Shown here one piece after another: positions 9,357 to 49,000 of a stretch of 64,000 bases of DNA. The stretch is from the NCBI GenBank assembly GCA_002104985.1, contig MCGO01000005.1:124001-188000 (forward strand), read 5' to 3'. The notes under the pieces were generated by a model. That model did not search any database. It was not told where the DNA came from and was given only the letters and a program-made list of their open reading frames with translations. Made by a program: the position numbers and the translations under genes. The stretch is from Rhizoclosmatium globosum (taxonomy: Eukaryota; Chytridiomycota; Chytridiomycetes; Chytridiales; Chytriomycetaceae). Every line of letters starts with the position of its first letter. The first letter of the stretch is position 1.

Positions 9357-12323
9357 ATGGTTCTGGGGTCTCTAGCAGCCACCTCGCTGCCGAGTAGTCT
9401 CAATCTTGCTTTCGTTTCCATGTTCTGCTTTCTACCAAACTTAGCCTACAACAGTTCACTGGTGACAAACTTCACTTTCAACGCCTTTTATGAAGACATG
9501 AATATCAACAACCTTGCCGGATATGCCTATTTCTTTAATCTGGCTGTAAAACTGGCCATTGATGGTTCGTGTGCACAACTGTCCATCAAGGAATAATATT
9601 ATTATATTCTCGAACAGATGTAAACGCAAATCCAACTATTCTTCCTGGAATCCACGTCAATTTGAAACAGTTTACAAATTGCGGGAGCTTTACGCCAGGA
9701 ATCCAAGACTCGTATTCTGGAAATTCTGGAGGATACGCCGTGTCAACTATGGTCGAAGACCTCATTAACAACAATATTTCTGCAATTATCGACTACGAAT
9801 ATTCCAAAACTGCAAAATCTGTTGCTGAAGCCTTATCTTCAAGCCAGGTTCAAATTCCTTATTGTACAGCCAATGTCTTGAATCCACAACTGGCGGATCG
9901 CTATAAATATTCATACTTTTGGAGAACAATTCCCGCAGTCGGTATGTTTACTTTGAGATTGAGGGTCTTTTCTGACATCCGTCAAACAGCTCTTGGAAAT
10001 CACATTACCCGACTTTTAACATACTGGAACGTGACGCGTATCGCAATGATTATACAAAATCAAGATAGCGTTGGATACTATGTCGGCTTAAAGATTGTCG
10101 ATACATTGCGCACTGCTGGAATCACCGTCGTCGCAATTCTCCCACTTCCCAACAAACCAAACCAAAACTTGATCAGTTACGCCAACAGAAGCTTACATAC
10201 AGTTAACGCAAGATACATTTTTGTTTCAGGACAAACTCCTTTCACTTGCGATATTCTGTACATGTTGGCCCAAATGGGCTGGACAGGTCCAAACATTGTT
10301 TGGATGGGATTGAATTCCCCTACACCATACACAGACCCGGTAAAAAGTAAGTGCGGAGAGTGTTCGATGGCCGTGATATATTCTCATTTAACAATTTACT
10401 GAACATAGCGTATGGCGCGGACTACTACACAATAGTGCAAGGATTCATCTACTTGCAACCACTATTACCTGACGGATCCAACCCACTCTACAACGACTTG
10501 AACGAGAGAATGTACAAAGCAACAAGTAATTATTCAACCGAAACGCAAGTCGGACCGCCAGGCTTCGATTTCATAAACTGGTTCGGTGTAAACTCTGGAT
10601 ATGACTGTGCCATGATGCTTCTACATGGGTTTCATAATTTGTTGGCGCGAGACAAAGACCTAACTCTTGATATGCTTGTTCAACGAAAGGCACAAGACCG
10701 AATGAATTGGACGTTGTTCGCGAACCTTGGATACGACGGACTCACTTCAGATAATATGACGCTGAATTCGTACGGTGAGGTGACGAATGCATATCAGTTC
10801 GTTTACCAAACTGGTGTTTATCTCAACTATTCTATATTTGGTCAAACAAATCCAAACGCCACTTCATTCAGCTATTATGGTGACAATAAGCGCGTATTTT
10901 ATGGAGGGCAGTCTATTCCGCCTTGGGATGGACCACGTACTCAAATTCTAACTGTATATTCGTTTTATGACCAGTCTGGTATTCTGGTTCTCTGCTTGAT
11001 GGCTCTGGGTTTATTGGCCAGTATTGTTTCGTTCATATTTCTTCTTTGGAACCGAAAAGACAAGGTGGTGAGAACTGTTGGAGTAGACTACACGTTGGTT
11101 CTTTTATTAGGCTGCTGTCTACTCTACTTAGCGACGGCGCTGCCACTTTTTAACCTAACTCGAACCATTTGCATGCTCAAAATATGGCTACCATTGATGG
11201 GGTTCATATTAACCGCGACACCATTGCTTGTCAAGAACATATACGTTTTCATTATTTTCAATTCACGAGATCGAATCAATATTGGCTCCATTTCAAAAAA
11301 ACTTTATGCATTCTTAGCTGGACTTATTGCTCTCCAAATTATAATGCTATCAATTTGGTCAACGCAAGTCAAAAGTTTGCCGAAGTGGATTTCGAATGAA
11401 AAACACCAAATACAACAATGTGAATATTCTGGAAACACTTCCACTGTCAGTGGTTTCTTATACGCTTATAACATTCTCGTGATTTTGGCACTATTCTGCA
11501 TTGCCTTCAACGTAGTTAATCTTCGAGCCGAGTACAATGAATCAGGATTACTCTTTATCATGGGACTGCTATATACACTCGCATTCCTGATCATCATCCT
11601 TTTGCCCTCAAATACCGACGAACTGAATGATATTCGATGGTCCATGACAATCTTTTGCTGTACAACTGTCTTAATTTCCTTGTTAATGGGGTCGAAAGCG
11701 GTTGAAGTTTGGCTTGCTCGACAAAAGATGCGAGAGTTGACGAAACCCGTGAGTCGTTCATCAACGGGTGCACGAAACCAGTCAAAAATCGGCAAGGAGA
11801 GTTCCGACAAGCCATCAAGTTATGATGGTTTAGGACGACGTGGTAGACCAATCGGCAGAGAACTGATAGACAATCATGCTGGAAAACGATGTAAGTCCCA
11901 TTTCTACATCTTAACTTAAATATTCACTGCATTCCTATAGCAACTTTGATGAACATTGATAAATTTGAAAACGCTTGGTTGGCGAACCAAAAATCGATTT
12001 TTGAAGTATACCCCTTTGTGAGCAAAGTAATAGCCGGATTGGAGTTTTGGGAAACGTGTCAGATTGACATCGTTCGTTGTAAAGAGCGAAAGTGGTTCAC
12101 TGTAAGAACTGAATTCAAAGCAGTCAGTTATATTCTCCTTCAAGCCACAGATATATCTGCAACAGACAATTTTGCTTTCATTACTTTGAAAAGATCGGAG
12201 TCTGTGAATGAGCAAGTGAATGGAAAAGACTATCGCGAATATCGCGTGAAACTCGAATTCAAAAATAAGGAGTTTACTCAAAACTTTTTAAACGAGTTCA
12301 ACTCGTTGTCGCAACAAGTCTAA
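9357..12323 (+). CDS. Class C GPCR-like receptor A (ligand-binding, 7TM and PH-like tail)
   Basis: Five exons (9357..9564, 9618..9941, 9990..10346, 10409..11890, 11941..12323) give an uninterrupted 917-aa protein, the cleanest receptor of the cluster. A hydrophobic N-terminus leads into a periplasmic-binding-protein type I ligand domain (NPTILPGIHVNLKQF, SYSGNSGGYAVS, QIPYCTANVLNPQLADRYKY, ARYIFVSGQTPF, GYDCAMMLLHG). The linker SIPPWDGP precedes seven membrane segments at about 10970-11710 with class C features (CMLKIWLP, LLVKNIYVFIIF, LPSNTDELNDIRW). A basic Ser-rich tail and a separate last exon encode the recurring domain (FWETCQIDIVRCKERKW, KLEFKNKEFTQNFLNEF). It is presumably a plasma-membrane receptor coupled to G proteins; its ligand is unknown. 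Unlike most paralogs it lacks the phase-2 intron in the ligand domain. Confidence 0.88.
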
Positions 12324-12422
12324 ATAAAATTAAATATTTAAGAGGAGAATATTCCGTTGTTGAGTTGTGAGAAGAAGTCCAAAGAAACCGCAAGAAAAAA
12401 CTACAGTACAACCACCAAACAA

Positions 12423-15627: not shown

Positions 15628-16673
15628 ATGGATATCATTCAATTAGAAGTTTATCGTGGATCTGACAAGATCATATCCCGGATGTTGACAGTTGAAGCAA
15701 TGACTGTTGGCGATCTTTGGGCATCTGTCCTGATTGAGTTAGAACTGCCCAGCCATATAACCGCTGAAACGAAGGCCTACTTTTTCAAAGCACCACCTGC
15801 CGATCCCACACAAGCAAAGGCTGGCATCGGAGTTTTGCTTTCAGGACCTACGTTTATCTCACAATATGTAACATTGCAAGCGCGTATGTTTGTAACAATA
15901 GGTATTCTCGCATTTCACGCCCCAGCCACTGTGCCAACACCTGCTCCAATGCGTTCGTTGCAAGTATTGATGGTTTCAAGAACAACATACAAATCGTATC
16001 CTGTTTTGGAAGTGCGAACAATGAAATGAAGCTCAAGAACTTTTTGGTTTCGCGTTTGAAGCTGTTGAATCCACCACTGGGTTGGACAGCCGATGAAGTC
16101 ACTTATACGAAATCCACGAAAGGGATTGGTTACAAGTTTATAAACGATCTTGGAAATGCACTCTTCTTCCTCCAGCCATATTTGGAAAAATTCAAGTCTC
16201 GTGGTCGACCAATCCCCAACATTCTAGATGTATACAACAACAAATGGAACGATCCAACTGTGTTCAAGAATAAAGTAGCTGCATTAGACACGAAAGCGGT
16301 TGCCTTGAAAGGGCATTGTCAAGCACTGAAGAGTATCATTGATTCGCCATGGATTCACAAACGTGAAGGTTGGGTTACAATCTTGGCAGGAGTTGAAGCA
16401 GTATATAATAGTATCAACAGTGAAATTATTGCATTACAAAGCCAAGCAAATCGAACACGTTTAAATCATGCAGCCACTACCCACATTCGAGACTTTGACG
16501 ATAATACCAAAATCACGGCAATTCAAGCCACTGCCATGGTTGTAACAGAAGCTACCCCAAGAATACAATCTGTTGTTCACGCCTTGGACTCAGTTGAAAC
16601 GTTGGTGCCTGTAGATTTGGACAATATATGTGATTGGAATGTGGACCTCGAAAGTTCCCGCGATAGGAGATAA
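15628..16673 (+). CDS. Unrecognised protein, probably lineage-specific
   Basis: Coding is suggested by two long in-phase stretches: ATG 15628 (MDIIQLEVYRGSDKIISRML, TVGDLWASVLIELELPS) and an ORF ending at 16673 (FINDLGNALFFLQPYLEKF, a helical stretch to SSRDRR). The intervening 15880-16025 must be spliced or contains a break; SIDGFKNNIQIVSCFG is the likely frame just before 16026. The first 60 residues look beta-rich and vaguely ubiquitin-like, as in Crinkler headers, but I see no LxLFLAK motif. No signal peptide or membrane segment is present, and no function can be assigned. The stop codon overlaps the ATG of the next gene (TAATG), which is odd for a eukaryote. Confidence 0.55.
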
Positions 16674-17773
16674 TGAAATCGCAGAACCTCATTGGGACCA
16701 TCCTTCTTCTCCTCGTCCCCAACACATGCACTGCTGCCAAGTTACTATATGGCAAACAGATTGTGTCAGCGCGGCAGTCACGCATCGGACCGTCTGTGTA
16801 CTCGCAGGGAACCGTGAGTGGATTCCTGATTCCGATCGCTGACGGATGCACGGCGCGCCACCCGTCAAACTCGCCGCCGCACACTCCGGATACTTTCGGC
16901 GGTGCGGCAGAGGCTACTGCGTTGCCGTCGCCGTGGATTGCGCTTGTTCGGCGCGGCGGCGGCTGTTTGTTCTCTGCGGCGATCCGCGCAATGCAAACGA
17001 GCGGCGCCGTGGCCGTGGTCGTTGGCGACGAGCACAGCGACAAAAGATTGATTTCGATGGTTCCGGCGAACGACGAGGACGTGCGCGATATTCGGGTGCC
17101 CAGTGTCTTTGTTGGTTCGGCCATCACAGAACTTGCGAAAGCCACTTCAACGCTTTCCCTTGAACCGCCGCCAACCTGTCCATCGGCTTATTTGTACCCT
17201 GAAACCATCCCTCTTTGTCCGCTGATACCGAATCATTCACTCCTCAGAGTTACCCTGGTTCCTTCGCCACTGCAAGACAACTTATTTGCCCATATTGCTG
17301 TCGTTCTATTTGTCCTTTCACCGCTTATTGTTCCAATGTTATTCCTCGTATTTGATACCTTTCTACGGCCTGCGAAAAAGGCGGCTAAGTTGCCACTCAA
17401 AATATGGTGCGAACAGGATCAGATATTGCTGGCTGACCACTCAACTTGCTCCATTTGTCTCGACGAGTTCTTATTAGGAGATTCTATTCGGTTGCTTCAC
17501 TGCAATCATTGGTTTCACACTCATTGTGTTGATGCGTGGCTGGTTCAGCGATCTCCCACCTGCCCACTCTGTAAATTATGCATCTTCACAACTGCGCCCG
17601 CATCAACTTCGTTCCATTTAAAACGGCCTCATTCAAAAGAAATCTTTACGGATCTCGTAGTACCCACTTCATTTGTAGATTACGCGGAAGAAGATGATTT
17701 GTCAGGATCTGAGTTTGAACTGGAAGAAGGAGTTCCGCAAATTGTACCTTCAGCATTCTCATCGTTCCATTGA
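16673..17773 (+). CDS. PA-TM-RING E3 ubiquitin ligase, copy 1
   Basis: Single exon, 366 aa, with the family's standard layout. A signal peptide (IGTILLLLVPNTCTA) is followed by a lumenal protease-associated domain (WIALVRRGGGCLFSAAIRAM, SGAVAVVVGDEHSDK, VPSVFVG). One membrane helix lies near 17290-17355. The cytosolic RING-H2 domain is complete: CSICLDEFLLGDSIRLLHC, HWFHTHCVDAWL, CPLCKLC. Members of the family (RNF13, GRAIL, RNF167) sit in endosomal or secretory membranes and control trafficking of membrane proteins. The N-terminal part is more GC-rich than the surroundings. The start is supported by the signal peptide. It heads a set of three such genes lying among the receptors. Confidence 0.87.
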   Translation: MKSQNLIGTILLLLVPNTCTAAKLLYGKQIVSARQSRIGPSVYSQGTVSGFLIPIADGCTARHPSNSPPHTPDTFGGAAEATALPSPWIALVRRGGGCLFSAAIRAMQTSGAVAVVVGDEHSDKRLISMVPANDEDVRDIRVPSVFVGSAITELAKATSTLSLEPPPTCPSAYLYPETIPLCPLIPNHSLLRVTLVPSPLQDNLFAHIAVVLFVLSPLIVPMLFLVFDTFLRPAKKAAKLPLKIWCEQDQILLADHSTCSICLDEFLLGDSIRLLHCNHWFHTHCVDAWLVQRSPTCPLCKLCIFTTAPASTSFHLKRPHSKEIFTDLVVPTSFVDYAEEDDLSGSEFELEEGVPQIVPSAFSSFH

Positions 17774-17846: not shown

Positions 17847-18793
17847 ATGTCTACTCTCACCTTCATCTTGAGCTTACTCCTGCTCATACTGCAAATTCTT
17901 CATCTCTGTACCTCCAAAGTTTCCTTTATGAATGAGGCTAAACCATTAGCGATACTTCGCCGCACCAACACAACCCTCAAAGTCTCGCCCAATGGACCAT
18001 CAATTCGTGGTATTTTGTTTTTGAGTCCAGCAACTGTCCAATCTGAAGCTCTCATGCGAAGCGCAAGGAATTCCTCTTATCTCACCCCAGATTCTAAGAA
18101 TAGTTCCATCAGCAGCTGGTTTACACTCTCGAAATGCCAGCAAATTGTTAACAGGAACCCTTGACGAATATCATGTTCTGACAATTGTTCCTTGTTCGTA
18201 TGTTGATTCCTGCCACACCAAACTTTTACACAACGCATCAATTCCATATCTCTACCTTTCACAAAACGACTTTGCTTTGCTTCAAGAGCTGTTTCATCCA
18301 ATGTCCAATTAGTATTCTCCGAGACAGCCAAAAACCAAACCTCCGAGTCTTCCCATCTTCAAGCAAGATTAATTCCCGATAAATATTTTCCAATCTCTCA
18401 CGGGTACTGCTTCTACTCTTTTTTCTCTGGCCTCTCGTGATCGTGTTCTTGCACGAAACAATTTATGCGTTCCCAATTCTAAAAGAGTACCGAAGATCCC
18501 AAATAACTATTCGCCGTGTAAAAAGTCTCCCCACACGAACTTGGAAACGCGATCGCGATTCAACTGAGTGGCAGACAGCGTGCTCAATCTGCCTGGAAGA
18601 TTTCGATGAGACTTCGTCGATGTTGTTGAGAAAGTTGCCGTGTAGGCATGAGTTTCATGCAGAGTGCATTGACCGATGGCTGATTGAAGTTGTGGACTTT
18701 TGCCCTTTTTGTAAACGAAGAATAGGCGATGTTATTGAGAACGATGGCTTGGCACAAACCATCTACTTTATACTCTCCAATCCAGCACTCTGA
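17847..18793 (+). pseudogene. PA-TM-RING ligase, copy 2, with broken frame
   Basis: The same layout as copy 1 can be followed but not in one frame. It has a signal peptide (MSTLTFILSLLLLILQILHL) and PA-like sequence (GILFLSPATVQSEALMRSAR). The homologous reading then moves to another frame near 18070 (SAAGLHSRNASKLL, DEYHVLTIVPCSYVD) up to a TAG near 18310. It resumes with a membrane helix (LLLLFFLWPLVIVFLH, about 18405-18450) and an intact RING-H2 (CSICLEDFDETSSMLLRKLPC, HEFHAECIDRWL, CPFCKRR) ending at 18793. The second gap might be an intron; the first looks like a one-base change. It could be a pseudogene or a good gene with a consensus error. Its RING exon is antisense to the extreme 3' reading frame of receptor B. 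Confidence 0.6.
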
Positions 18794-21700
18794 AAATGAG
18801 AAATTTACTTTATCATTAAATTTATCAGTATTTGTCGGAGATGGTTCCTGTTTCAACAAAGCATTTTGAAACTCCTTCATAAACGAATTTGCCATATCAA
18901 AGTTTTCGAATTCCATGACAAGATCATAATTCCCAGCATGAAGATTACTTCGAGTACCTTCCAAGGTTGCCCGAACGGACAACACAACCAAGTTCCCTTT
19001 TGTGACAACATTCCCGTTTCGAACAAAAGAGAAGCAATTGATAAGATTCTTTGAATTAAATATTAGCCACACATTATTACGTACACTGTGTATCTCTGGC
19101 TTTCCAAGAACCCATTTTGACCACATCAACTTGTGACCCTGGGCGAACTTATAAGGGCAAGCGTCAACGGTCTGATTCAATGATTGATATTATGAAACAA
19201 CGACGATATTATTGATCATGTCATACCTTGTTAATTGTACGGATTCGATATTCACTAGGTTCAGAAACAACCATCATTGTTTGACTTCGCGCCACTCCCC
19301 GACTGCGTGGCTTTTTTTCTTGGAGAGCTTTAATGGAGATCTTATTCCAAGTGTTTATCAAGTTTGAATAATTCGCGATAGCTTTCGGAAACACAAATGA
19401 GAGTAAATTGACTGTTGTAGTCAGCCAAATGCATACCACAGTACTAAAAGTGTTGTTGATGTTTTCGGACTGCTCGATTTCTTCTATGATGAAGTAACAG
19501 AGTACAATTGATGCAGTTGTAGACATCATGAGAGCAGCTTCGTTTTCCCACCAGACTCTCCGCAGAACATATAGGACCACGGGTACAAATGAAACCAATA
19601 ATAGAATGTTCAGTGTGTAAATCAGTGTGAGGATTACTGTTTTCGGATATCGACATGTTTGGTAATACTTGCTTTCAGCTGCTTGTATCACCACAACTCT
19701 GGCGTTATTCTTTGACACGAGAATTAGCGCCTGAAAAAATTTACTCCAAGTACTGTGTTGGCCAAACATCACTTACAAGGTTTAACACGATAATGGTTAA
19801 AGAAATCAACCGAAACTTCCTGACCATAATCGCAGCATTTTTCACACGCACTCCTGAGAACAACTTAAGAAAAACAATATTTTTACACAGTAGAGCTGAG
19901 AGCACGATGTTTATCCCAGCCATTAGCAATGGTTGGTGAAGTTGGCACCTGAGTTTGCTGATGGGGCCCACAGTCGCAAAGATTGACAAATAACACAACA
20001 AGCATCCAAAAATTGTAGCAGCGCTTTCGGGAATTGATATAATATGAACAGATGCCTTTGTCGCACGTAGAATCCGATACCCCAACAACAACCAATAATT
20101 CCTATCGCCCCAAGGACAAGAATCCATCGCCCCTGCCAGTTATCAAGTGCATAATAAAAAAAGTCTGGATCGGATGTTGATCCATCATGAGGCGGAGTAT
20201 AGGACCCGTTGGCGAATATTGGTGGAGCGTCAGGATAGAACTTAAATTCCGTGAAATTTGAGTTGACTTCCCCAAAGGCTACTCGTAAAAAGTGAGAAAA
20301 TTATTTGACTGGGCTAATACATTACCAAAGAAGTGCCCCTTCTGTGCATTCTAAATATGGCGGGGCTGTGGAATCTTTAACACATATTCCATAAAACACA
20401 AACAGACTTACACCTTCAAATTGCCATCAGGCGTAAGCTCAAAAGTCTCATTAAGTATTCCTTTATACTCTGTTTTCTGGAACAGAGTGTAATTCATCAA
20501 CGGTCCAGCTTCTCGCAATGACAGCAAAGGCTCAAGTCCGTTGTTTGCTTCCAAGAGCTTATTGATACCATACAGCATATTCATGGTACAATCGTATGCT
20601 GCTTGGAAGTTTGTGTTCAACAGACATCGTCTCTGGTGCTTGAATCTCTTATATTCAAGTAATTATAAAATTCCAAGAGTGGAGGAACGTTCCAATTCAG
20701 AGGATATGAACCAGTGAAGATATAATCTGTTGCATAGCTATAATAATCCGGCCCGAGGACTGAAATGAATTATTTGATATTCCAAGGAATTTTTGTTTGT
20801 GCCTAAATACCTTTAAGAGGATCGTAGAATGGGTTTGGTGCATTTTGTGCGAACCACACAATTCCGGATGATCCCTTGAACCCCAATTTACCGAGTTTGT
20901 ACATAGCCTCGCTACAAATCCTGAGTCCCCGAAAATAACAATATACCTGAGAAAATAATTAGACTTTAGTTTATGAACTTTGATTAACCTTGCTGAGACT
21001 CGCTTCATCACAGTGGCGGCATATTCGATTTGTTCGTTGGTGATAATTGTGGCAATGTGAGCACTAGCTACAATTCTTATTTCTTCTTTTTGAACGTTTC
21101 GAATGAACTGTTGGCTTGCTATCATGTTTTTAATATGTGGACTCAACTGCAACTGCGCGAGACTCACTCAGCAGAAACGACGAATACTTCTGCACAACTA
21201 TAGCTACTTGCTTTACACCCAATGATTTTAGGAAGACTGGGACAGCGTCGGCTATGTTTATTATAAGCGTACGCCAAAAGTAGTTGAAAATTCTTTTGTC
21301 GCTCAGGGCCGGAGAGCCAGCATAAAGAGAGCAATAAGGTATTTGGTTATTGGATAGAATTTGGGCTGTTGGACTGTTCCAATTTAATGAAGACTCGAAA
21401 CGTTATGTTGCGACCTTACATTGCTACAGAACTTATATCATTTCCAACAACAGCTATAACATCTTTATGGACATTGATAATATCGTTCGTCATAATAGCA
21501 GATGCGAAGCCAATCGGTTGTCCATTGTACTTCAAGTTTGCAGTTGGATTGTAAGGTCCACAACTACTGAAACGTTTAATGTTCACTTGAAGATTAGGTA
21601 GTATATCTGGTCGACTGTTAATATCACTAATGGCCATCGAAATCACAGCATCGTTGAGGAATGCCCAACCACTCCAACCAAATACATCAATAGTGTCGCG

Positions 21701-21861: not shown

Positions 21862-24800
21862 TTATTGTAAATCTCTTGTCAAAGTTGTTTTTAATTCTGC
21901 TAAGAAGGCATTTGCTTCGTCATCGCTTTTGAATTCCAAAAGCATTGCATTGCCTGCTCCAGCCCAAAATCCAAACACATTTAAATTTGATTCATTGGGA
22001 ATATTAATCAAGATTTTGTTTCCAGTCGTAGTCAGATCTTCCTGCAAAATGGATACACAGTGGTAAAACTTTTTTGAATTGAGCGACAACCAGACTCTAT
22101 CTCGGACACGATGTAACTCAGGCTGACCAATGAGCCATTCCGACCATAAATATTCGCCCAAAAATTTGAATTTGTATACACATTGGTCAACCGTCTTTTC
22201 CTTCATTAGTTAAAAAACACCAAAATCAAAGATATTTTGCGTTACCATGCACAAGACCTTGCTTGAATATTTTGCCCTTCCATGCTTGAATCCTAAAGCG
22301 GTGAAACTTGCGTCACTGATTAATTGCCTGTCCTTTTGAATCATAAATGATCTTGTAAACGAATCCATATTGGTGCTTTTAGGCTCAGATGAGACAGACA
22401 ATCCTTCTTTTTTGCGCTTCGTTTTAGATTCTAACCAATCCAATCGTGCAGCCGCAACTTTTGGAATCACAAGTGATGTCAAGACTACACTGGTTGCTAC
22501 CCATATGCACACAGCGACGCGAAACTCAGATTCTCTACTGGTTGGCATTAATTGAACGAGTAAGAAACAGAGAACCATGGTGCAGGCTATTACGATAAGA
22601 AATGTGGACTCATTGTGTGTTTCCCATCGAACTCTTTGCATAAGATAGAGCGCCGGCAGAATGGATATCAGAAGAAAGATAGAATACCCTTGAAGTACCG
22701 ATAACGGTGTAGTATCAGACTTCGGTGTGCAAATCTGGAAATATAGCTCCCCCTTCGAAAAGATGACCTTGGGTAAATCGAGCTGCACATAAGTTATTAT
22801 CCAAACAAGCAAGACCTAAAAAAATAATTAATCAGTCTAAAACTGGGGTGCATTCAATGCTTTACAAAATGAATGATAACTAATCCCCAATTCAAGACCC
22901 GAAAGATGAGTACTTCCCGCTCTGGCCGTTTTACGTGTTTGCGACCAAATAAACGGACCAACAACAAATTTTTGCACAATATAGTCGATAATCCCAGATT
23001 ATATCCCGACGAGAGGCCTAACCATTGAAAGTGGCATTTCGCCCAAGTTTTAACCCCGAAGGATCCAAATAGCGACAAATAGCATAATAAACACGCCAAT
23101 ATAATCGTAAAAGACTCTGCAACCGATGCTGCTTTCACTGATGCAGTTTCTCGTGCAACATAAAGAAACAGAGTCGCCAAAATGCAAGCAGTTATTCCGA
23201 GAGTACATAAAATAAGAATCCATTGGCCATCAATTGTTTCTAATGAATAGCTATATAGAATTGGCTCTGTCTTGGAGCCATCTGATGGCCTGATCGTGGA
23301 ACGGTTGAAAAAGACAGGTAAATTGGGCGAATAGAAAGTAAACAATGTAGAATTTGCGTTGGTTTCTCCGAAATCTTAAGTTTGCGTGTGTTATTTATTT
23401 GGTGGCGAAAGGCAATTCAACTTACCAAGGGACGACTTTCTAGAAACAGAGGCAAATATTGTCGGCCTTTTATTTAGTTTAGGCTTTAGCTCCACAGACG
23501 TCAAAAAAGATAATTACGCTTTCAAGTCTCCGGTTTCTGTCAGTTGAAAAGGGTGAAATGCTAAACCATTGTATCCTGTGTCTTGAAATCGAGAATAATC
23601 TAAAAGTGCATTGCCTTTTCGTGAAGACAGTAGGTCTGGCGTGACGGATTTGTTAGTTTTCAGGAGCTAGTAGAGTCCATTACTTGACGTTTTATAACGA
23701 GGAGACGAGAGTAAGATACCTTATCCAGCCCGTATAACAAATTCATGACACAATCAGCACTTAAGCGTACATTAGAATTCTGAAATAGATCGACACGCGA
23801 AAGATCGGACTTTGTAATTTGGGTATATGAGTAGAATTGGTTGGCGGTAGCTGTCAAGTTAACATCAGTGCGTCCGACACAAATGTAATTTGAGGCGTAT
23901 GTTTCATAGTCAGGTCCATATTCTAAAGAATCAGTCAGTTCAGTTGAAATGAGGAATTTTTTACCAATCAACGGCGCGGAGGTTGTTGGCTCATTGTACA
24001 CCAGCCATACAAAGTTTGGCCCAAATATACCAAGCTTCCCCACCCGATATAAAATTCCAGACACTTTACTTGAATCTCCAATCATAACTATATATCTGGC
24101 AGAAACGCGATTTAGTGACATGGTCACGAATAAAGCTTCCTCAAGGCTGACTGAAGGGCTTTGCGATAATGATAGCTTTGCGACAATGCGTATTCCATGG
24201 CGCTGAGCCTCAGAAACAACCTCTTGGCTGACTAAAGAATACTGTCAAACATAGAAATTCAACTCTGACTTACCGTATCCATACGAGGAGAAGGGCTGAT
24301 ACAAAACTGCTATTTGTTTCACGTTTAATGCCAGAAGAAAAACCGCAAGCGCTTGGCCGAAGTTTTCCAATTGTGGTCTCCAAAAGTAGCTGAACATATC
24401 CTTGTTCGATAAAGCCGGGGAAGCCGCACAAACGGAACAATACGGAATTTGATAAATGGATAGAATTTCCGCGGTAGGACTAGGAAGTAAGGGCATTACT
24501 TCATTTGCAAATGTTTCGTCACTCACATTGTGACACTGCTTATATCGCTTCCAATGACGGCTATAACATCGGTGTGTATATTTACAATATCATCAGACAT
24601 AATGGCTGACGCGAAGCCTATTGGGCTCCCATTGTAGTAATCGTTTGCGCTAGGATCGTAAGGGCCACAGCTACTAAACCGCTTAATGTTGATGTGAACA
24701 TCCGGAAGAATATCAGAGCTGTTATTGATGGAACTAATCGCTGAGTTGATCAGAGCATCGTTCAGAAAGGCCCATCCCGCCCAACCATAAACATCAATCA

Positions 24801-24992
24801 ATCGTGGATCGAACTTAGATGGATAGTTGGACACCAAGAACCAGCAGTTGTAATATTGGGGACTGCACAATACGGAGCCAGCAAACCTATTGTGATATTT
24901 TGTGGAATAGCGTATACGGCCTCGATTGTGATATTTTGTGGAATAGCGTATACGGCCTCGATGAAGAAGGGAAAGATGGACAAGAAAACCAT
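21862..24992 (-). CDS. Class C GPCR-like receptor C
   Basis: Closest paralog of B by sequence and position. A short signal peptide (MVFLSIFPFFIEAVYA) is followed by a duplicated 12-residue block, then NITIGLLAPYCAVP. The ligand domain continues with GWAGWAFLNDALINSAI, NIKRFSSCGPYDPS, DVIAVIGSDISSV and the shared phase-2 intron, then QIPYCSVCAASPALSNKDMF. Membrane segments span about 22280-23250 (WILILCTLGITACILATLFL, FTIILACLLCYLSLFGSFG, LCKNLLLVRLF). The last exon gives the recurring tail domain (YLWSEWLIGQPELHRVRDRV, WLSLNSKKF, LLEFKSDDEANAFLAEL). One phase break lies near 24835 and the 23350-23660 stretch is poorly resolved. A ligand-activated G-protein-coupled role is inferred from the family. 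Confidence 0.75.
24889..24960. repeat. Perfect 36-bp tandem duplication in receptor C
   Basis: Two identical 36-bp units (24889..24924 and 24925..24960) lie head to tail without a mismatch. On the minus strand they encode EAVYAIPQNITI twice, at the end of the signal peptide and start of the mature receptor. The length keeps the frame and adds a second N-glycosylation sequon (NIT). Confidence 0.95.
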
Positions 24993-33643: not shown

Positions 33644-36600
33644 TTGTATAGTTGCAAATTGAACGCGTCAATCTCTTTGTTGGTTTTTCTTGTAATGACC
33701 GCCAACCTTCCATCTAGTACCAACATTACCCTTGGGATAATAGGCTGCTACTGCTACTTTCCAACGACCACGTTACTCACCCCAACTTCATCCCTCGTAA
33801 CCTCTTTCCCTCTCTCATCTAACCTCTCTCTTGCCACCTTAACAACCTCTCTCACCCTGGCCAACACTTACTTCAACGATCTTGCTTTTCTCGCTGCCGT
33901 CAACGTTGCAAATCAAGACCCAAACTTTCTTCCAGGAATACACGTAAATGTCAAGCGCTTTTCTGACTGTGGAGAGTATTACGAAGATGCAGTTGATATA
34001 TATTCTGGTAATTCGGGCGGCTATGTTGTGAGTCAGATGGCTTCAGATATTGTGGAGGTGGCGGATCTTGTGGCTGTGGTGGGAAATGAGTATTCAACGA
34101 CTGCAAGGTGAGAATATGCATCAAATTAGAGCGCACTGACGCAAATACGTGGCTCAGAGCATCCGCCGAAGCATTGTCTTACTATCAGATTCCGTATTGT
34201 TCTTCGGGGTCGGCATCGCCGCGTCTTTCGGACAAAAACAAGTACCCTTACTTTTACCGACCACTTCCATCAAAAGGGTTAGGGGATCATATCAGCAAAC
34301 TTTTAACGTCGTGGAGTGTACGCCGTGCAGCAATTATCTATGAGAAAGACGATGAGCTGGGTGTAAATTGTGAGTAGTACAGTGTTGATTTTGTGTTTCC
34401 CAGATAACTTCTACTTGAACCAGTCGCAAATGACATAGCGCAGTCATTTGGGAAAAATAATATCCAACTTATCGCAAAAGTCGGCATCATTTCAGCAAAT
34501 TCAGATGCATTGTACGTGAAAACTCAACTTGATCAAACCAGTGCCCGCTACATAATCCTCAGTGGCCAAAACGCATTCATATCCACAATGTATTTTGCCT
34601 TATCAAGCCAAAACATGACAGGCCCGGACTATGTCTACCTCAGCTACAACTCCCCAATGCTCTCTTCAACCAACCCAAACGAAACAACCCAAATCCAAGG
34701 CTTCATCCAATTCCAACAACTTCCGCCTATACTCACAACCCCACTATTCCAAACTTTTTACTCCCAAGTCCTTCATCTCGCCCAAATCGACGAATCACAA
34801 ATGTCACCCTTCACACTCACGGACAACAACAACATTGGCGCGTCGCCCGCGTTCGACTGCGTGATGGTAATGCTGAAAGGCATCGCGAACCTTCTCGCAT
34901 CACGAAACGCGACTCCAGAGGATTTGGCAGCCCGTAAACTCCAGGCATACATGAACTACACGTTGTTCAGGAACGTTGGGTTTTCAGGACTAGATGTGGA
35001 TCCAGTAACATTTAGTGAGTCGGGGGATTTAATGGTTCCGTATCAGATTTCGTATTTTACGGGAGTTGGGTGGACGCAGACTGTGTTTGGGTTTACGAAT
35101 GCGGATGCCACGAATTTAACGATTGTTGGGCAAGTTAATTTTAATGGAGGTGGGTTTCCTCGGGTCTGTTTTTGTAGGGGTTCTTATGTTGACTAAATTA
35201 GGAGGAAATCTACCGCCTCTTGATGGGCCGTCAGTCATGCATAATCCGACGTATACACTTGCGGAATACAGCTCAACTATTGTTATTGTATTAGCTCTAC
35301 TGGGAATACTTTTGAGTGTACTCTCCATCTCAATGCTAGTTTGGCTGCGAAAAAACCCAATCATCCGAAGTATCGCCGTTGATTACACATGTCTTTTCCT
35401 TGCAGGCACGATTATTGGATTTATCGCAATTTTGAACGATTTGGTGCCAGTTTCCACCTTTCAATGCCAATCTCGACAATGGTTGACCCTCACGGCGTAT
35501 ATTTAACAATCAGTCCTTTGATTGCGAAAAACTTTTACCTTTGGATTCTGATAAATTCGAAACAAAAGCTAGCTGTTGAAAAACTGAACTGGATTTTGTA
35601 CCTCGCAACAGCATGTTCCATTCTCATTGAAGCTGTGATCCTTTGGCTGATGTCATCCTACACAACAATTTTACCACATCTCTATGCCGCAGATTCTGAA
35701 TTCAACGTATACATTTGCAAAGTAGTCAGTTCAGCTCCATTCACTTCAATCCTGTTGTACACGTACAACGCTATCCCTTTGGTAACACTCCTCTTCCTTT
35801 CACTCCTAACTCAAAGCCTCCACACGCGATACAACGAATCCCGAATCCTCATGCTTGTATTCCTCACAATACTGGCCACATTTGGCGTCATTCAAACCCT
35901 CCCCATGAACAGCGACCACCTCAACGATCTCCGACGAGTCACATGTATGTGGGCATGCGGGGTTACACTCGTTATTCTCGTCATTGGAAGCCGCGTGTGT
36001 GAAATGTGGATCGAGATGGTGGGTGACGACCAGTTGCGGCTGATGATGTGGGGTTCGGCTGTGAGGTCGTCGGCGGGGAAGGGTTTGGTACCTGGGAAGA
36101 CAAGTGGGAGATTGGTTGTGAGTTTGATTTTGAGTCCTCCGAGGAGGAAGCGGGAGAGTTTTGTGGACAGGGTGGATGGGCGGCCGTCTGCAATAGGTGC
36201 GAAGGAAACTACGGTGTTTCGAACAGATGGATATGCTCGACGGCCGCTGGTGAGTATTTTTATTGATTTTTTTTTCGTATCTTGGATATGGTTGGTTAAT
36301 CAGGGAATAGGAAGGAATACATATTTTCAGAATCAGAAAAGGGCGTCGTTTCTGGAGCAAATGGATGACTTCACCAATTGCAATCAATGCGATTCGAGAA
36401 ACATATTGGATATCTCTGTTTTTAGATTTCGGCGGACCAGCTGAATGCTTTCCAATAACAAGGCAGACAACCGCGTTCTCAAACCCCCAAAAACGCATTG
36501 CTACGATTGTTTTGACTTCAAGTACCAAAATTCGCGACGAGATGAATAATTCGTCATTTCACGGGTATGAAATTGAGATTGCGGCAAAAAGTGCGTTACA

Positions 36601-36673
36601 AGCGGAGGCCCTTGTCGCCGAATATCAAGGGCAGTTGAGAGATATGGTGCGTGAGAGGACTTTAAATAAATGA
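33644..36673 (+). CDS. Class C GPCR-like receptor D
   Basis: Ligand domain with a hydrophobic leader (LNASISLLVFLVMTANLPSS), TNITLGIIGCYCYFP, GIHVNVKRFSDCGEYYED, YSGNSGGYVVS, LVAVVGNEYSTTA and the phase-2 intron. It continues with SYYQIPYCSSGSASPRLSDK, ARYIILSGQNAF and ASPAFDCVMVMLKG. The linker LPPLDGP precedes membrane segments at about 35265-36015 (TIVIVLALLGILLSVLSISM, VDYTCLFLAGTIIGF, LIAKNFYLWILI, LPMNSDHLNDLRR). The final exon carries the shared tail domain (RFWSKWMTSPIAINAIRE, YWISLFLDF, QAEALVAEYQGQL). The initiator is unclear: the first in-frame ATG at 33695 would lose most of the leader. A phase break near 35500 cuts membrane segment 3. Tandem with receptor E on the same strand. 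Confidence 0.77.
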
Positions 36674-36767: not shown

Positions 36768-39759
36768 ATGAATGAAAAAACCAACCTGACTCTGGATTTA
36801 TTTCAAACTATTGTTTCTTTCCAGAAGTAGTTCTCGTCAATGATGGCGCCCTTGTTTCCAACTTCACAATCACGAGGGAAATCTCGCTGGAAGCATTATC
36901 TTCCGCAGCAGGAAACGTCTACTTAACGATATAACCATGATGATTGCAGTTCAAAAATACAATGAGAACCGAACCGAATGTTTAATGTCGATTTCAAACG
37001 ATTTACGGATTGTGGACCGTACTATTATGACGCTATGGATCAATATAATGGCTATTCTGGAGGATATGCTGGGTCGATTATGAATAATGATATTGGGAAT
37101 ACATATCCAGATGTTATTGGTGTGGTGGGAAACGAATACTCATCAACCGCGCGATACAGTGCAGAAGGATTATCATATTATCAAATACCTTATTGCTCTT
37201 CTGGATCAGTGTCGCCACGGCTTGGGGACAAGCAACGCTATCCATACTTTTTCCGAGCAATGCCATCACGAGGTAATGCTTGTCAATAAACCCGGGCTAA
37301 TTCTTCGTATAATAGGTCTCGGAAACCACATATTCCAGTATCTAAAAACCACTTCGGTGACGCGTGTGGCAATGGTGTATGAGAAAAACGACGAAATGGG
37401 ATCACAATTTGCGATAGATATTGCACAATCCATGGGACAAAATGGAGTGCAGCTTATTTGCAATATTGGTCTGAACACTGACTTTGGACTGGATGAATTG
37501 CACTATTTGAAGAGCCAGATCCTTCAAACAGACGCTCGATATATAATCATATCAGGCCAAAATGCATTCACAGCATCAATATACTATGGAATGGCCTCTA
37601 TTGGAGTTTATGGAACTAAATACGTCTATATTGGGTACAATTCTCCATCACTGTTTGACAATCAAATTTCCCAGTATCAATTCAATGTTTATGACGCCAT
37701 CTCAGGCTTCATTCACTTCCAACAAAATCAACCAGACATGACCACCGAATTGTTTGCGGATTTTTATCAACGAGTGCTGAATGCCTCCTTTTTGACTCCT
37801 TCTGACTTGGACGCTCTCACGTTGATTGACAACTCAAATCTGGGAGCATCCCCGTCATTTGACTGCGTGATGGCGCTCATGATTGGGTTTGAAAATCTTG
37901 TACGTAAACTGGAACAGATCCAAACGGTTTGGCCAGCCGAAATCTACAACAATTTCTCAACTTCACTCAATTTAAAACCACCAACTATTCTGGGCTAGAT
38001 GGTATTCTAAATTTTAATGAATATGGTGATCTCCTAACGTAAGTGGTTGCTTTTGCGTTTGAATTTGTTTTGAACATCACAACAGTTCATATCAAATCTC
38101 TTATTACACGGGAGACTACTACAACCAGACTGTTTTCGGCCATACGAATGTAGATGCAACAAATTTTACGTACATTGACAATATTTTGCCAGTTTATTTT
38201 GGAGGTTTCTTGAAAAGTTCGAGGTTGTAATGTATTGACATTCAAATAGGATCAACGACACCACCTCCAGATGGACCTCCAAGACAACTTGACAGAATAC
38301 TCTTTTCACTTCAGAAAAATCAATTTGAAACAGTGATTTTTCTGGGTAGCTCAGGTCTCTTCCTCAGTTTTGCTTCATTTGCGTTTCTGTTTTGGTTTCG
38401 ACGGCATCCAACAGTTCGAAGCTTAGGCATTGATTACAGCTCCATGGCAGTGTTCGGAGTAACAATCGGGTTCTGCTCAGTTTTGGCTGAAATAAGTGAA
38501 CCGTCACCATTTCTGTGCAATGCCAGGGTTTGGATGATCTATTGGCCTTGCACATAACACTGGTCCCCTTGATCATCAAGAATGTATACGTTTGGATAAT
38601 ATTTGAGGCCACAGAGGATCTGGATGTGGTGATTATATCACGCAGACTCTATGCTTTTACAGTGCTGTCATTACTATTCGAAATAGCCCTCATTTTGGCC
38701 TGGAGCAAATTATCAAATCAGCAAATTGAGTTGGTTCAGGCTGACGATTTTTATGACGTTTTCGTTTGCAGAGGCAACAATAACTGGGCGACCACAACTG
38801 TTACCATAATGCTTTATGCTCACCACACGCTTTGGCTTCTTTCAATCCCCCTGCTTAGTTCAAAACTTAGGAATGTACTCCCTCGCTACAACGAGATTGC
38901 TTTTCTAATTAGTATTATGATTGTCCTGTGTCTCGCAATTGCCATTGTTGAGACTTTACCCATGAATTCAGATCATAATAACGATTTACGACGCGGTATA
39001 TGTGTTTGGGTCACAGGAGTGATTACACTGGCATTGTTACTTGGGTCGCGTGTATATGAGTTGCTATGGAACAAGTGGCAGTATGAGAGAACTCGTCTCC
39101 AAAAAGAGACCACAGGTAGAAGATCAAGCTCCAATAGCCGAAGAAGCACAAGTCGCAGAAGCAGTGGTAAGGAAACCTAATCATATGGCTACTCAAATCT
39201 AAAAACGGTTGAAGTTCAAGGGGAAATCAATAGAGAACGGCGTGAAAGCACCTTACCGCGGAAAGGTGAGTTCAATCTTTCAAGTTGAAGACCTTACAGC
39301 TGCATCAGGAGTACGAAAACCTGACGCAAATTTATCTAATGGATATTCCTTCCGACAAATGGTATCTACACATAATTCGGTGGCGCTTAACGCACACTAA
39401 GACCTTCATAGTCGTCAGTCTACATATTCAAGATCCAGTATCGCAAATATTTCAAGTGGATGAACTACGAAACAAAGTGGATGAAAACACCCATAAAACT
39501 CCACGAAATACGAGAACGAATGTGGCTCTCACTCTACTGCGAATTGGGCACCAAGTGTTATATCATATTACCGCACACAAAGCCAGTCGTTACTGGAGCA
39601 AACGTGAAAGTTCCGCTTCACAAAATAAGTTCAAAAGAGAGCGCCGTTCTTGTTTTTGAGTTTGGAGGTGCAAGCGAGGCCAACGAGTTCGTAAGCGAAT
39701 TCGACTTGCATAGAAATGCCCTGCTGAAGGATAGAACAGGGTCAGTAACAACAAAATAA
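36768..39759 (+). CDS. Class C GPCR-like receptor E
   Basis: Follows D by about 95 bp. The extreme N-terminus is poorly resolved: a candidate start at 36768 (MNEKTNLTLDLFQ) is followed by DGALVSNFTITREISLEAL. The family pattern is then clear: NVDFKRFTDCGPYYYDAMDQ, NGYSGGYAGSIM, DVIGVVGNEYSSTARYSAEG, YQIPYCSSGSVSPRLGDKQR, ARYIIISGQNAFTASIYYG. Membrane segments lie at about 38325-39070 (TVIFLGSSGLFLSFASFAFL, LIIKNVYVWIIF, LPMNSDHNNDLRR). The tail domain ends at 39759 (TKWMKTPIKLHEIRERMW, LVFEFGGASEANEFVSEF). Like receptor A it lacks the phase-2 intron after the SSTA codons. Single-base breaks are seen near 36927, 36975 and 38545. Decay is possible but consensus error is likelier. Confidence 0.7.
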
Positions 39760-41620: not shown

Positions 41621-41643
41621 ACAAGGAAATATATATTTCTATA

Positions 41644-44600
41644 TCACAACCCAACATCCCTCTTTATAGCATCTTGTAAGAAGAAGCTTCTTGCTCGTGG
41701 AGTCGATTTCCCACTTATACTCGCATCAAACGACTTTGGTTTCTGGGCCTCACGAACAACAGTCTCCAAAGATGTTTCAAATTCTTTCAGAAACGCTGCG
41801 GCTTCGCTTTCGTTGCGGAACTCCATTTCCAGCAGAGTTTGCGACCCTTGTAGAAAACAAAGAGAGTGTCCTTTTTGCGATAAGCTTGAATTGCTCTCAA
41901 GGACAAAACACTGGGTTTCTTGACTTCGACTTAACGATAACCAACGCTTCCGGCCACCAAGTGAATGTATTGTTGCAAACCCTATAAACCATTCTGAAAA
42001 CGTATTCCAATCGTTCTTTGAATGTCGAAACGTGCATAATTCGACTGTAGTTGTTAATTCTTTGTACTCATATCGGATTCTTCCTTTGAAGAGGGATGAA
42101 TTACTTTGAACCAAAAGATCCACCTCAGGCTTTGCTGACACATTATTTGTCAACGAAACAACAAACGAAGCACGCTGAAACTTTACTTTGGACGCTTTTC
42201 GTTGTTGCGACATCACTTTCGTGGCTTTAGATCCCACAGTCAAGATCAAAACAAAAGTCCCAAACAACCAGAGACATATACACAGCTTGAAGTCAATATT
42301 CTTGTCACTTTGACTAGACAGTGTTTTCGTTATCACCAAAACTAATAGCGCCACGACAGCAAGCAAGGCGTGTTTGGAAGCATCGTTATGCTGGGACCAC
42401 ACACGTTTCAGTTTAAATACAGTGACAAGAAAGGCAATGAATATGAGTCCATTATATGCACCCAAAGCAATCGACTTGTACTGGAAATCAATCGCAAGAG
42501 TTTTCTCGCACCGAATCGTATAAACCGTTGAAAACGAAGACCGGACAGCCTCAAATTGCAAAGTCTGCATCCACAGATCAATCAAGACGCCTTCAAGAAC
42601 AAGTGCGCATAATGTACCAAACCCGTAAAAAAGCGAAAGCCGTTTCGCAGCACGCTTATTCTTGATGGCTTCACAGGATCAAACAGCCGAATCAATAGCG
42701 CGTTCTTACTCGTCAGAGAAATCAAAATGATAGCATAGCCCGCGGAGAAAAGCATTTCCCGCACATTGCATTTATAGTCCGTGATGTCGTCTAGATACAG
42801 GTACATAGATCCATCCATACACAAGCACACACCCGCAAATAACTAAAAGCGTGTGTGGAATAGATGCTGCTTTCACCAATGGATGTTTTGCAAATATGGC
42901 AATAAATCCAAATGAAAGGAGACAAAGGACGTATCCTGAAAAGATAAAGCCGATTATTGTCTTCCGTTCCAGAATGTGTGACGACAAAGAATATAGTTCA
43001 AGGTTGGTTTCAAAGTATCCGTCAAATGGAGGTATACTAGACCCGTTGAAAAATACGGGCAAAGAATTGATGGAATGAACAGGGATCCGTTCATGTTTGT
43101 GGTTCCGAATTCTGAAGTTTTGAAGTTAGTCGGATATATTTTCAAAAGAACTCACGGATATTGGTTGTGTTCCAGCACTCCTATAGTAGAAGTTCCAGCC
43201 TGTTCCAAGTCTCCATCATTATTCAATCCATCAGTTTGTTTTTCTTTTCGCTTACATACCCTGTCGCAAACGTAAGCCATTTACAAACGGAGTTATACGA
43301 CTAACCAAGATTTCGAAACACGTATAGTTCATATAACTTGAAGCTTCCGATTTGAAAGCATAGGAAGATCAAAGGAGCGATTCTCTTCAAGAAGCTGTGG
43401 GGTCAGCCTGTCAACACAGTAAGCATACCTTTTTAAATCCGAGCAACATCATCATGGTACAATCAAACATACTCGAGGAATCATTTCAAGGCCAGCAAGA
43501 AACCTGAAAAAAAACAAACAAACAGGAGATAACTGACGTTTCCAGATAGATTCCGAAAACATACGTGACGTCCCAGTTACAAGTGGCTCCCCATTCATAC
43601 TTATATAACCTTTGTATAGTTATAATAGTCGTCCCCATAAAGAACGAGAGGATTGTCGACGGTCAGCAAAGAATTATATCCAATGAAAACACGATCATCT
43701 GAAACAGCACCCAACCCCAAGATTGAACATCAGCCCAGTAATAAATTCAGGCTGCCCGCAAATGATTATATAGTGGGTGTCTGACTGATCCAGAATCTTC
43801 CCGCATACTCTATGGTTTCAACGACAATTCATCATGAATTGCAATGTACGCGGATATTTTCATGCTATTTCGTAGAAAACTTGTTTCATCTGCCACAAAT
43901 GTCGTTGGACGATTGGTCGTCGGTTTGGTAGAGAAGGGCCACTTTTCGAACGTTCCATACTTTAGGAGACTGTGTAGGTGGTTGCCAATACCAGAAGACG
44001 GAATTGTTCGCCAGAAATAAGGGTAGTTGCCTTTTTTGAGAATCTTGTACTCAGAGATGTCGCGGCACAGTGTGGTATCTACATCGTGATTTCAGAAACT
44101 GTTCTACTATGAATTTTGATGAGTGGAAATACCTGGAAATAGGAAACTCCTGTCCTAATGTCCTATGTGTTCTCAACTAAGTCATGTGAAGGTAACGAAG
44201 AATAAATACCTTACTGCTGCAGAATACTCAGCTCCAATAACCCCAATAACATCACTATGTTGCTCAATTATATCACGGGCTGTGATGGTTCCTGCGAATC
44301 CTCCTGATTTAGCCGAATAAACATTTCGTTCCTTCGCGCAGGACAGTCTGTGAACCTTTTGACGTTGATGTAACATTGTCGCCAAACATTCATTGCACTG
44401 CCGAGTGCAAGAAGGCAGAGAGGTCGAGTTGAGTTGGAACAAAGACAAATGGTCATCACTAGCGATCGGACAACCCGCCATAAACAACCTCATCATAGTT
44501 TAGGACGAGCGAGTTATTAAACTGTAGACCAGGTATGGCACAATAACTTGTGATGAAGGCGAGAGTTATTGAATTCATTTTTGCGGCCTTTGTTTGTTTT

Positions 44601-44656: not shown

Positions 44657-44662
44657 TAAACT

Positions 44663-45999: not shown

Positions 46000-46090
46000 G
46001 CAATTGTTTCGTTGGTTTTCTTTGGAATAACGACAATAAATAAGAGAAAGGAAGAGGAAATAAACCAATGAAACTATCTACCGCACACAC

Positions 46091-49000
46091 TCACTTTCCA
46101 CACATCCTTTGAACTTTAATATGCTTGCTCGTTGCCAATGCACTGATGGTTTTGTTGAATTCTTTGACAAACTCCTCGGCTTTGTCTTTGTTTTCAAACT
46201 CCATAGTCACTTTGTCTTTCCGAGCAGATTGAGGCATTGCAGTAAAGATTACAAACGAGCCACGAGCCTCTGGTGAGTATCCCTCGGAAATGTAAAACGT
46301 GTACAATTTCTCATTTGTTTGGAATGACACCCAAGCACGCGTCTTGATAATGTGGATGTGGAAGATTGTCTTGTGCCAATGTCCAAAAAACGTGTTATCG
46401 TGTCTGCAAAGGAAATGCTTTTGTTCACCGAGCGTGATTTTCTTGTATCTATATGTTCCGGGATTTTTCTCATACACACTACTGGTTTGAGTGACTTCTG
46501 GAATATTTTAGAAAGAAAACTTAATTATGCGACACGAACCTGCGGACAGGCGTTCCTTGTCCCTTGCTGACAAGGATGGAAGCAATCGCTTCTTTGCAGC
46601 TGATGAATTACGCTTTTTTCCTTTCTCCTCCCCAGATATAGTACTTGCCATAGTACTTTTCTCTTGACTGCCTCCACTGCTTCCACGACTTTTTACTTGA
46701 CTCATAAGTCCATTGAAGCTTAATTTCTTGAAGTCAATCTGAAGATCAAACCAAATTTCCAACATTTTGCCTCCAAACAAAAGACCCAAAGTTGCCGTTG
46801 TGACAACCCAAAGACAAATGCTTGTTTTAATACCGGAGCTCGGGTCTGAAGGAGTGGATGCAATAGCTTGAAGGAGAGAAAGAATACAGCCCAAAAGACA
46901 GCAATCATTGTCAAAGTCGATGACTCGTTCATGTTTCCCCAAGAAACTAGTCTGAGTCCATAGATAATTGGTGCAATGCAGAGCAGCAAGATTCCATTGA
47001 ACACGTACAAAGCCACAGAAAAGTGAGAAATCTGTTTCCCACGACCCACCCAGTCTTGACATTCGTAAACTACACGATTGGAACCCACATCTTGAACACC
47101 TTGAACACCAGACTGTTTCACCCATATCCCTGCAATCAAAGCCTCAATTCCAATCAGCAAAAACTTCAAAATCAACGTTCCCATCCTCAATCTCGCGGCC
47201 TCGGCCTTTCCCATAGCTGCTTTAAATCGGAACAACACCACTAGCATCAAGTTTTTGACTAACAGAGAAGTCAAGATTGCCCCAACACCCATCACTAACG
47301 TAACAATTCTAGCAGTACATGTGGAGTCGGTAGATTCACCGATATAAAAGAGAATACTGACGTAAACGGATACACAACCAAGCACGACAACCACCAAGTC
47401 TGGTGGAGAAGCACTTTTAACAACTCGACTTCCTCGAAATACTCCCACAAATACAAGCACAGCCGCACAAATGACGAGTCCGGATACAGAGAGGGCAAGC
47501 ATCACCTTTCCATTTGAAGTATCCATGGTGTCAACGATCACAGGAAGAGGTGGTGGACCATCAACTGGAATCAACGTTGTGTTGGCTGCAAATACGGGTG
47601 TAATCGTGGTGGAAGGAATGAACTGAGATCCATCTTGCGAGGTTTGGCCGAAGCTTGTCAGGTTCAAGTAATTTCCGGTGTAGAAAGAAGCAGTGTACCC
47701 ACTGTTTCAATTTTTAAGAATAAATTAAAATTCGAGAGGTACATGCAGTGGTGTGTAAAAAGAAACCCACTCACACAAGCAAGTCACCAGAATCAGACAA
47801 CGTAGCCGGCATGGCGCTGATTCCGTTATAACTAACGTTTTTAAAGATGGTGTAGTTCATATGCGATTGTAACTGTCTCGTTGCGAGCATTTGAGGCGTC
47901 CATGAAGGATTTCGTTGTAACAGTTGGTTCAGTCCCAACATCATCATCATGACACAATCATATGAAGCCCCTGTCCCGTACGAATAGTAAAAATACGCGC
48001 CGCCCATCTTTTTGATTGTGTTCTGGAATGTCTGGACGTATGGAACTGTGGATGGAACTGTTGTTGGGAGCAAGACTATCGAGCCTTGGACATAATTGTA
48101 GTAGTCAGGACCATAAGCTGTTCTTTGGATTAGATGGTGAAAATTTAGGAAAGTACTTACTTTGCAATGGGTCTCCGTAATAAGGTTTTGGAGAGTTATA
48201 CAACATCCAAACAAACTTGGGTCCCCAGAATCCAAGCTTTCCCATTCGATACAAGAGAGATGCAGAGAAGCTTCCCTGTCCACACACAAAGATATATCTT
48301 GCCTGTGCTTGTTCCAATGAAGCCTTTGCGTACAAATACGAAAACTTGTTTAAATTAGTGGGAAGATTCACAGTGGCGACAACTTGGACACCATGGTTCT
48401 TCATGGCTCTTATGATGTCGGCGGCAGTGCTTGCTCCTAGTGCGTCGTCGGATTGAACAATAAGGGCGATACGTCCAACTTTCCAGGACTGGAGGAGACG
48501 GAAAACGTGTTCACCCATACCAGCTCCTGGAAGAGGACGCCAAAAATACGGGTTTTTGATCTTGTCACTGAATGTCGGTGCCGAGGAGGCTGAGGAACAG
48601 TATGGGATTTGGTTTAACGATAAAGCCTCAGCGGGGCCACTACAAACAAACAGGCGTCAGAAGATAAACTCTGAGAATAGAGAAAAAAGGAAAGAAGCTT
48701 GGCAATCTTACACAGCAGTGGTGCTATATTGATCGGCAACGACAGCAATCACATCTTGGTTCTTCTCAACGATATCTTGAACAACGATACTAGACGCCCA
48801 ACCGCCCGAGTTGCCCGAGAATTGTTCTGCTTCTGGGTACCAGTGACCGCAATCCGAAAATCTCTTGAGGTTCACATGAAACGCGAACGTTGGGTCATTA
48901 TTGACCATATTGACCGCTGCGAGATACGCGATATCGTTAAAGTATACAAAACCCGAAAGGCCATAAAGATTCAAGTTTTGGAGTATACGGCTTTGTAGTT

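Follow-up and report, generated by a model that had tools for sequence, protein, structure and literature searches.

A predicted PH-superfold tail domain on class C receptors of Rhizoclosmatium globosum and related chytrids

Introduction

Seven class C G protein-coupled receptors (GPCRs), here called A to G, are encoded within a 64,000 nucleotide stretch of the genome of the chytrid Rhizoclosmatium globosum (GenBank assembly GCA_002104985.1, contig MCGO01000005.1, positions 124,001 to 188,000 of the forward strand; this whole stretch is called the window, and coordinates are counted from its first nucleotide), and behind the seven-transmembrane (7TM) region of each lies a cytoplasmic tail. The locus raises the question of whether these tails are one domain, what that domain resembles, and what it could do for a receptor. 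The original prediction, made from the letters of the window, held that a possibly undescribed PH-like domain closes all seven. We examined the window, the whole genome and related proteins, and find a sequence family placed directly behind the 7TM, present on most of the receptors examined and in two further genera. We put at roughly 0.6 the probability that the tail is a built-in cytoplasmic docking module, a divergent PH superfold of the EVH1/Ran-binding branch, fused long ago to class C receptors.

Fungal class C GPCRs are described in the available portions of PMC3251606 and PMC5168858 as carrying 7tm_3 and an ANF- or PBP-type N-terminal domain, a layout that the tail-bearing receptors share, and the available part of PMC13308352 lists them (class XVI) as experimentally uncharacterised. 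The claim that no such C-terminal domain had been described on class C GPCRs agrees with these sources: a C-terminal domain on fungal or related class C receptors is not mentioned in the available portions of PMC3251606, PMC5168858, PMC12842992, PMC13308352 and PMC12716839, and "C-terminal" as a term is absent from the main texts of the first three. C-terminal domains of other receptor families are treated in the accessible part of PMC12716839 (DEP in GPR155, and PIPK). Literature titles and abstracts likewise yielded no such receptor tail domain, in a search whose coverage left out most subscription papers.

Results

Each of the seven tails was recovered as an open reading frame of about 105–140 residues at or very near its predicted place, the seven could be aligned, and three residues (two Trp and one Glu) were invariant, so that the claim of a shared domain stands. 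Their hosts are class C receptors, with Pfam 7tm_3 matches in A, B, C, D, E and G and sub-cut-off fragments in F. The proposed motifs, an aromatic pair, an [IL]-H ... W-[IL]-S-[LF] stretch and a terminal helix EFxxxxxAxxFxxEF, hold as a consensus, but not every tail has each of them; the "Cys-rich strand" was overstated, as there is one Cys column, filled in 16 of 31 diverse tails. Within this wider set 30/30 ungapped tails have the Trp that opens strand 2, 24/27 ungapped tails have an aromatic residue (Phe or Tyr) in strand 1, and 27/31 have the second Trp, in strand 3. One position of the last helix is Phe in 27 tails, Leu in two, Ile in one and Met in one, and Trp in none of the 31; the segment between strands 1 and 2 is net basic in 25/31. 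Among the window tails, identity to that of receptor C falls as low as 15%.

The domain is, as had been suggested, possibly undescribed: no Pfam family exceeded its cut-off in the seven window tails. Among the 31 tails (Pfam cut-offs being given for only the first of them) no family did better than E 0.0015 (ALS_ss_C, one tail); classical PH (PF00169) was absent from the families listed at E≤1, Ran_BP1 was absent from those listed, and the weak names included three PH-fold families (WH1, Sharpin_PH and PH_35). NCBIfam returned scattered weak names only, and six chytrid proteins searched against Pfam gave ligand-binding and 7TM families alone over cut-off. Matches to BRAP2 (5/31 tails, best E 0.0095), to ribosomal eL38 and to the proteasome were short or weak and were set aside as chance.

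We then asked how far the family extends within the genome (56.9 Mb in 420 contigs). A Pfam 7tm_3 search returned 139 exon matches, so that the class C receptor family is large; several near-identical receptor pairs, their members on separate contigs, look like haplotype copies. Six-frame searches of the complete genome with four different tails located 28 distinct places at E≤1, and 26 of these sit 208 to 1126 bases downstream of a same-strand 7tm_3 match; the remaining two are receptor F itself, whose 7TM is seen as two sub-cut-off fragments, and a place on contig C24 (E 0.12) that no receptor explains. For counting, 69 rows representing 63 loci were hand-picked from those of the 139 matches that had downstream sequence available, leaving out window receptors B–F, a few further exon matches of listed receptors, L004–L006 (no tail) and L010 (tail). 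A profile built from the window tails only found a tail at E<1e-3 behind 25/69 matches (two of these belong to the window, receptors A and G, and several others are haplotype copies or exon pairs from a single receptor), with 0/69 upstream and 0/69 on the reverse strand; at E<0.1 the counts were 33 downstream, 2 upstream and 0 reverse. Iteration of the profile (group 1) gave 33/69, with 1/69 upstream and 0/69 reverse.

Most of the other receptors end in one of two tail types that diverge further and were picked out by eye and through weak matches. Group 2 is related to group 1 by profile comparison (P 2e-10, score 55.2; best of 60 shuffles, 15.9), and group 3, which occurs on L024 and L020 among others, is related to group 2 (21.2; best shuffle, 13.8) and only marginally to group 1 (15.6 against 15.1 for shuffles). 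Taken together the three groups place a tail in 62/69 rows (63/73 when four left-out copies are added), with 1, 2 and 2 of 69 upstream and 0/69 on the reverse strand, although the group 2 and 3 counts are partly circular because these very rows supplied the training members of both profiles, chosen by eye or through weak matches. The upstream control matches may be tails of tandem neighbours. The tail thus follows the majority of the 7TM matches examined, a broader distribution than the seven receptors first claimed. Seven rows have no tail (L077, L073, L062, L063, L003, L013 and L011, the last with a weak match at 0.0079), and some group 3 genome matches (C368:257286, C379:50196, C48:49689, C53:7344 and C90:25083) have no listed 7tm_3 match close upstream. 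Tail and 7TM show a weak signal of co-inheritance (Mantel r 0.87 for 14 receptors; 0.25, p 0.038, without two close Chytriomyces copies). As a separate observation, the four 7tm_3 matches L003–L006, on contigs C192, C229, C352 and C370, are identical in score and extent, differ in their flanks and have no tail behind them; they could possibly represent a recent duplication or a mobile copy.

Presence on other chytrid class C receptors had been set beforehand as a test, and the tail was found in Rhizoclosmatium sp. JEL0117, Chytriomyces hyalinus, C. cf. hyalinus, C. confervae and Obelidium mucronatum; the three genera all belong to the Chytriomycetaceae, and the sampling is within that family. 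In the protein collection, two full-length searches retrieved 13 class C receptor proteins from fungi and one receptor from a fish; one search used the 7TM of its query only, and the tail therefore played no part in recovering those proteins. The window-only profile detected the tail in 12 of the 13 fungal proteins, with P0003 giving the weakest match (1.3e-5, E-values referring to a set of 14 proteins). Among the 12 is the near-identical ortholog of receptor A from JEL0117; over 95% of the receptor A protein the two are 97% identical. No tail was found in the thirteenth, P0002, whose gene model stops early, and the fish receptor P0006 has no tail by this profile. The tail alignment searched alone against the protein collection gave no match, probably because that search was limited to proteins of similar length; full-length queries found relatives. 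In P0005 (Chytriomyces hyalinus HDU81_010254) the deposited model, judged by eye, joins the receptor to the ligand-binding part of the next tandem receptor.

AlphaFold models of two tails, folded with fair to good confidence, were used to assess the fold. The receptor F model has seven strands and a final helix, and the receptor C model has the same layout with strand 2 split in two; both predicted models thus show the seven-stranded barrel or sandwich with a C-terminal helix cap that marks the PH superfold. In comparison with the Protein Data Bank (PDB), both match EVH1, RanBD and PH structures over nearly their whole length, with Homer EVH1 as the top VIA-align match and Ran-binding domains as the best Foldseek rows for each; JAK1 FERM, Akt and Tiam appear as lower PH-superfold rows for the F model, which makes a PTB- or FERM-type identity a less favoured candidate. 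By these models the nearest structures to the tail are EVH1 and Ran-binding domains, and the tail very probably belongs to the PH superfold, on its EVH1/Ran-binding branch. The PH-like outline guessed from sequence is thereby borne out in prediction.

The tail is under constraint. Between receptor A and its JEL0117 ortholog 104/108 tail residues and 74/82 linker residues are identical, in keeping with the earlier claim that the tail is more conserved than the linker, but dN/dS pooled over five near-copy pairs (one more copy pair and one paralog pair being excluded) is 0.12 for the 7TM, 0.25 for the linker and 0.24 for the tail, and by this measure the tail is constrained no more than the linker. 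Single pairs gave tail values from 0.09 to 1.57, the pair at 1.57 having only 7 changes.

Discussion

The reading that we favour, of a docking module built into the receptor, would run as follows. An ancient fusion in the Chytriomycetaceae would have given class C receptors a PH-superfold module at their cytoplasmic end, and the module would have been retained as these receptors multiplied; its predicted EVH1-like surface, where the invariant Trp of strand 2 and the aromatic of strand 1 lie, would hold a peptide or protein partner, and the strand 1-2 segment, often basic, may hold the module close to the inner face of the membrane. In this way receptors with differing extracellular heads would share a single output platform. 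Different heads do stand over the tail: the receptor A ortholog has ANF_receptor over cut-off, and L020, whose tail is of group 3, has a weak resemblance to PBP_like_2 that stays below cut-off. This pattern suggests that the output end is constant and the sensing ends vary. For protein or peptide docking as the main role of the tail we would allow slightly less than an even chance.

The closest known parallel is the EVH1 domain of Homer (PDB 5zz9, 2p8v and 1ddv), which shares with the tail the predicted PH superfold and, as judged by eye, may share a Trp before strand 2, an aromatic in strand 1 and a Phe in the last helix. In animals Homer EVH1 acts on class C receptor tails (1ddv; PMC11237882, available part), and the same part of that source names the groove residues as W24, F14 and F74 in Homer1 and W23, Y16 and F77 in ENAH. 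Two of these three aromatics have a plausible counterpart in the chytrid tails, with the register set by eye and a strand 1-2 loop 2-3 residues longer. Homer differs in being a separate scaffold that binds the receptor tail in trans, whereas the chytrid module is part of the receptor. A bolder form of the favoured reading, that the tail is a Homer-like reader inside the receptor itself, one constant EVH1-like output module joined by ancestral fusion under interchangeable ligand-binding heads, is tentative and on balance somewhat unlikely; if true, the animal two-protein arrangement (mGluR tail plus Homer) exists in one chain in chytrids.

Several results weigh against a docking module of the EVH1/Ran-binding branch. 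No Foldseek match of either model passes E 1e-3. The third groove aromatic (F74/F77) could be assigned no position in the tails, and the other two were placed by eye. The WH1 family (PF00568) was approached by the receptor C tail only and below its cut-off (E 0.071-0.074, 13.4-13.5 bits against 22.4), and WH1 had no match over cut-off genome-wide in an exon-wise search that could miss an intron-split copy. Ran_BP1 (PF00638) gave 10 exon matches in the genome and none at a tail. Comparison of the tail profile with that of EVH1 was weak (score 16.5; 2/150 shuffles as high, one of which scored 134, probably an artefact, and was counted as reaching the real score) and was confined to the last strand and helix. 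The linkers of 15 receptors showed no enrichment of PPxxF-like motifs (1 found, 0.63 expected), and the idea that the tail binds such a motif in its own linker was dropped on that count. By these family-profile tests, therefore, the tails belong to neither EVH1/WH1 nor the Ran-binding family, although they bear a resemblance to each.

Other accounts of the tail draw on the same comparisons. Ran-binding domains (RanBP1, RanBP2, NUP50) head the Foldseek rows for both models and, in small profile sets prepared from PDB letters, gave the best of three matches (25.1, with 0/150 shuffles as high), as might be expected if the tail were a Ran-binding-like or G-protein-binding module holding a small GTPase or G-protein subunits at the receptor; yet that match covers 28 columns of the last strand and helix only, the Pfam profile that finds Ran-binding exons elsewhere in this genome finds no tail, and Ran is a soluble GTPase of nuclear transport. 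We consider this improbable. The 31-sequence tail profile run against solved structures had no match at E<0.1, the tail end of Nup358 coming at 0.14. The superfold and the basic strand 1-2 segment, which fits membrane closeness or lipid binding, are shared with classical PH domains (Akt1, PF00169) and would suit a membrane-lipid reader that clamps the receptor C-terminus to phosphoinositides and so sets activity or sorting. Classical PH domains have a conserved Trp in the C-terminal helix. The tails have none, and their profile similarity to Akt1 PH, again limited to the last strand and helix, did not rise above shuffles (10.5; 63/150 as high), and we regard lipid reading as unlikely.

It could also be argued that there is no domain, and that composition bias and the shared ancestry of recent tandem copies mimic a common pattern: the seven window receptors form one cluster, with identity to the C tail down to 15%. 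Against this stand the tails on other contigs and in other genera, the near-zero upstream and reverse controls, the pooled tail dN/dS and the fair to good confidence of the two models, and we judge this explanation already refuted.

The docking module, if correctly read, bears on how class C receptor and scaffold were joined in opisthokonts. The tail family occurs in at least three chytrid genera with no Pfam match over cut-off, and a conserved, probably soluble module of 105 residues offers a direct handle, being expressible alone and usable as bait for receptor partners.

Receptor genes within the window

The receptor A gene (9357..12323, + strand) is complete, with five exons (9357-9564, 9618-9941, 9990-10346, 10409-11890 and 11941-12323), four GT-AG introns and 917 amino acids. 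A ligand-binding domain and the 7TM (10963..11697; 7tm_3, E 9.4e-32) precede the tail, which is exactly the last exon (11941..12323, by gene model, alignment and window-tail profile), the PH-fold domain itself occupying about 11997-12320. ANF_receptor and 7tm_3 are over cut-off in its ortholog P0001, and ANF_receptor also in P0004, P0005, P0009 and P0012; among window receptors B–G, ligand-domain profiles were applied to one piece of receptor F, which had no ANF match. Elsewhere in the genome, L020 and L023 (contigs C90 and C160) are class C receptors with another N-terminal part in place of the ANF head, L020 being the one with the weak PBP_like_2 resemblance.

On the + strand the receptor D tail (36311..36670, open frame and alignment) follows 7tm_3 exon matches at 35270..35985 and a possible GT-AG intron (36250-36310), and that of E (39412..39756, open frame, genome search and alignment) follows matches at 38330..39042. 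The other four lie on the - strand. The B tail (18842..19180, open frame and alignment) has a possible GT-AG intron at 19226-19172 and a 7tm_3 match at 19777..20022; the C tail (21865..22206, from the open frame, the genome search and the first AlphaFold model) has its 7tm_3 match at 22908..23222. The G tail exon (46094..46477, by open frame, alignment and splice check; domain about 46103-46438) accompanies a 7tm_3 match at 46855..47520 (E 1.4e-24). The F tail (41728..42054; second AlphaFold model, 41740-42054) shares one open frame with the last transmembrane helices, with no intron between, and its 7tm_3 fragments at 42585..43125 (E 1.2e-4 and 6.3e-5) are each below cut-off; its predicted extent, 41740-42000, was right in place and short, since the domain runs to about 42054.

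A frame-keeping intron before the tail is possible in A, B, C, D, E and G, the splice sites being clean for A, B and D but less certain for C, E and G (the possible E intron is 252 bases). The separate exon proposed for A, D and G accordingly holds for A and has clean sites in D, and is less certain in G. Further receptors of the genome, e.g. L019, L030, L026 and L015, also keep 7TM and tail in a single open frame, as F does, and a separate tail exon is therefore common and not universal.

Between receptors A and B lie two genes (about 16673-17773 and 17847-18793, + strand) with RING-type motifs at their ends by eye. The B tail frame stays open past the domain to 18587, and this extension (18587-18846, - strand) runs across the 3' end of the RING-type gene that converges on receptor B. 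The first exon of receptor C (about 24830-24840, - strand) shows, by eye, an apparent one-base frame change relative to receptor B; receptor C may be a pseudogene, or this may represent an assembly error at its first exon.

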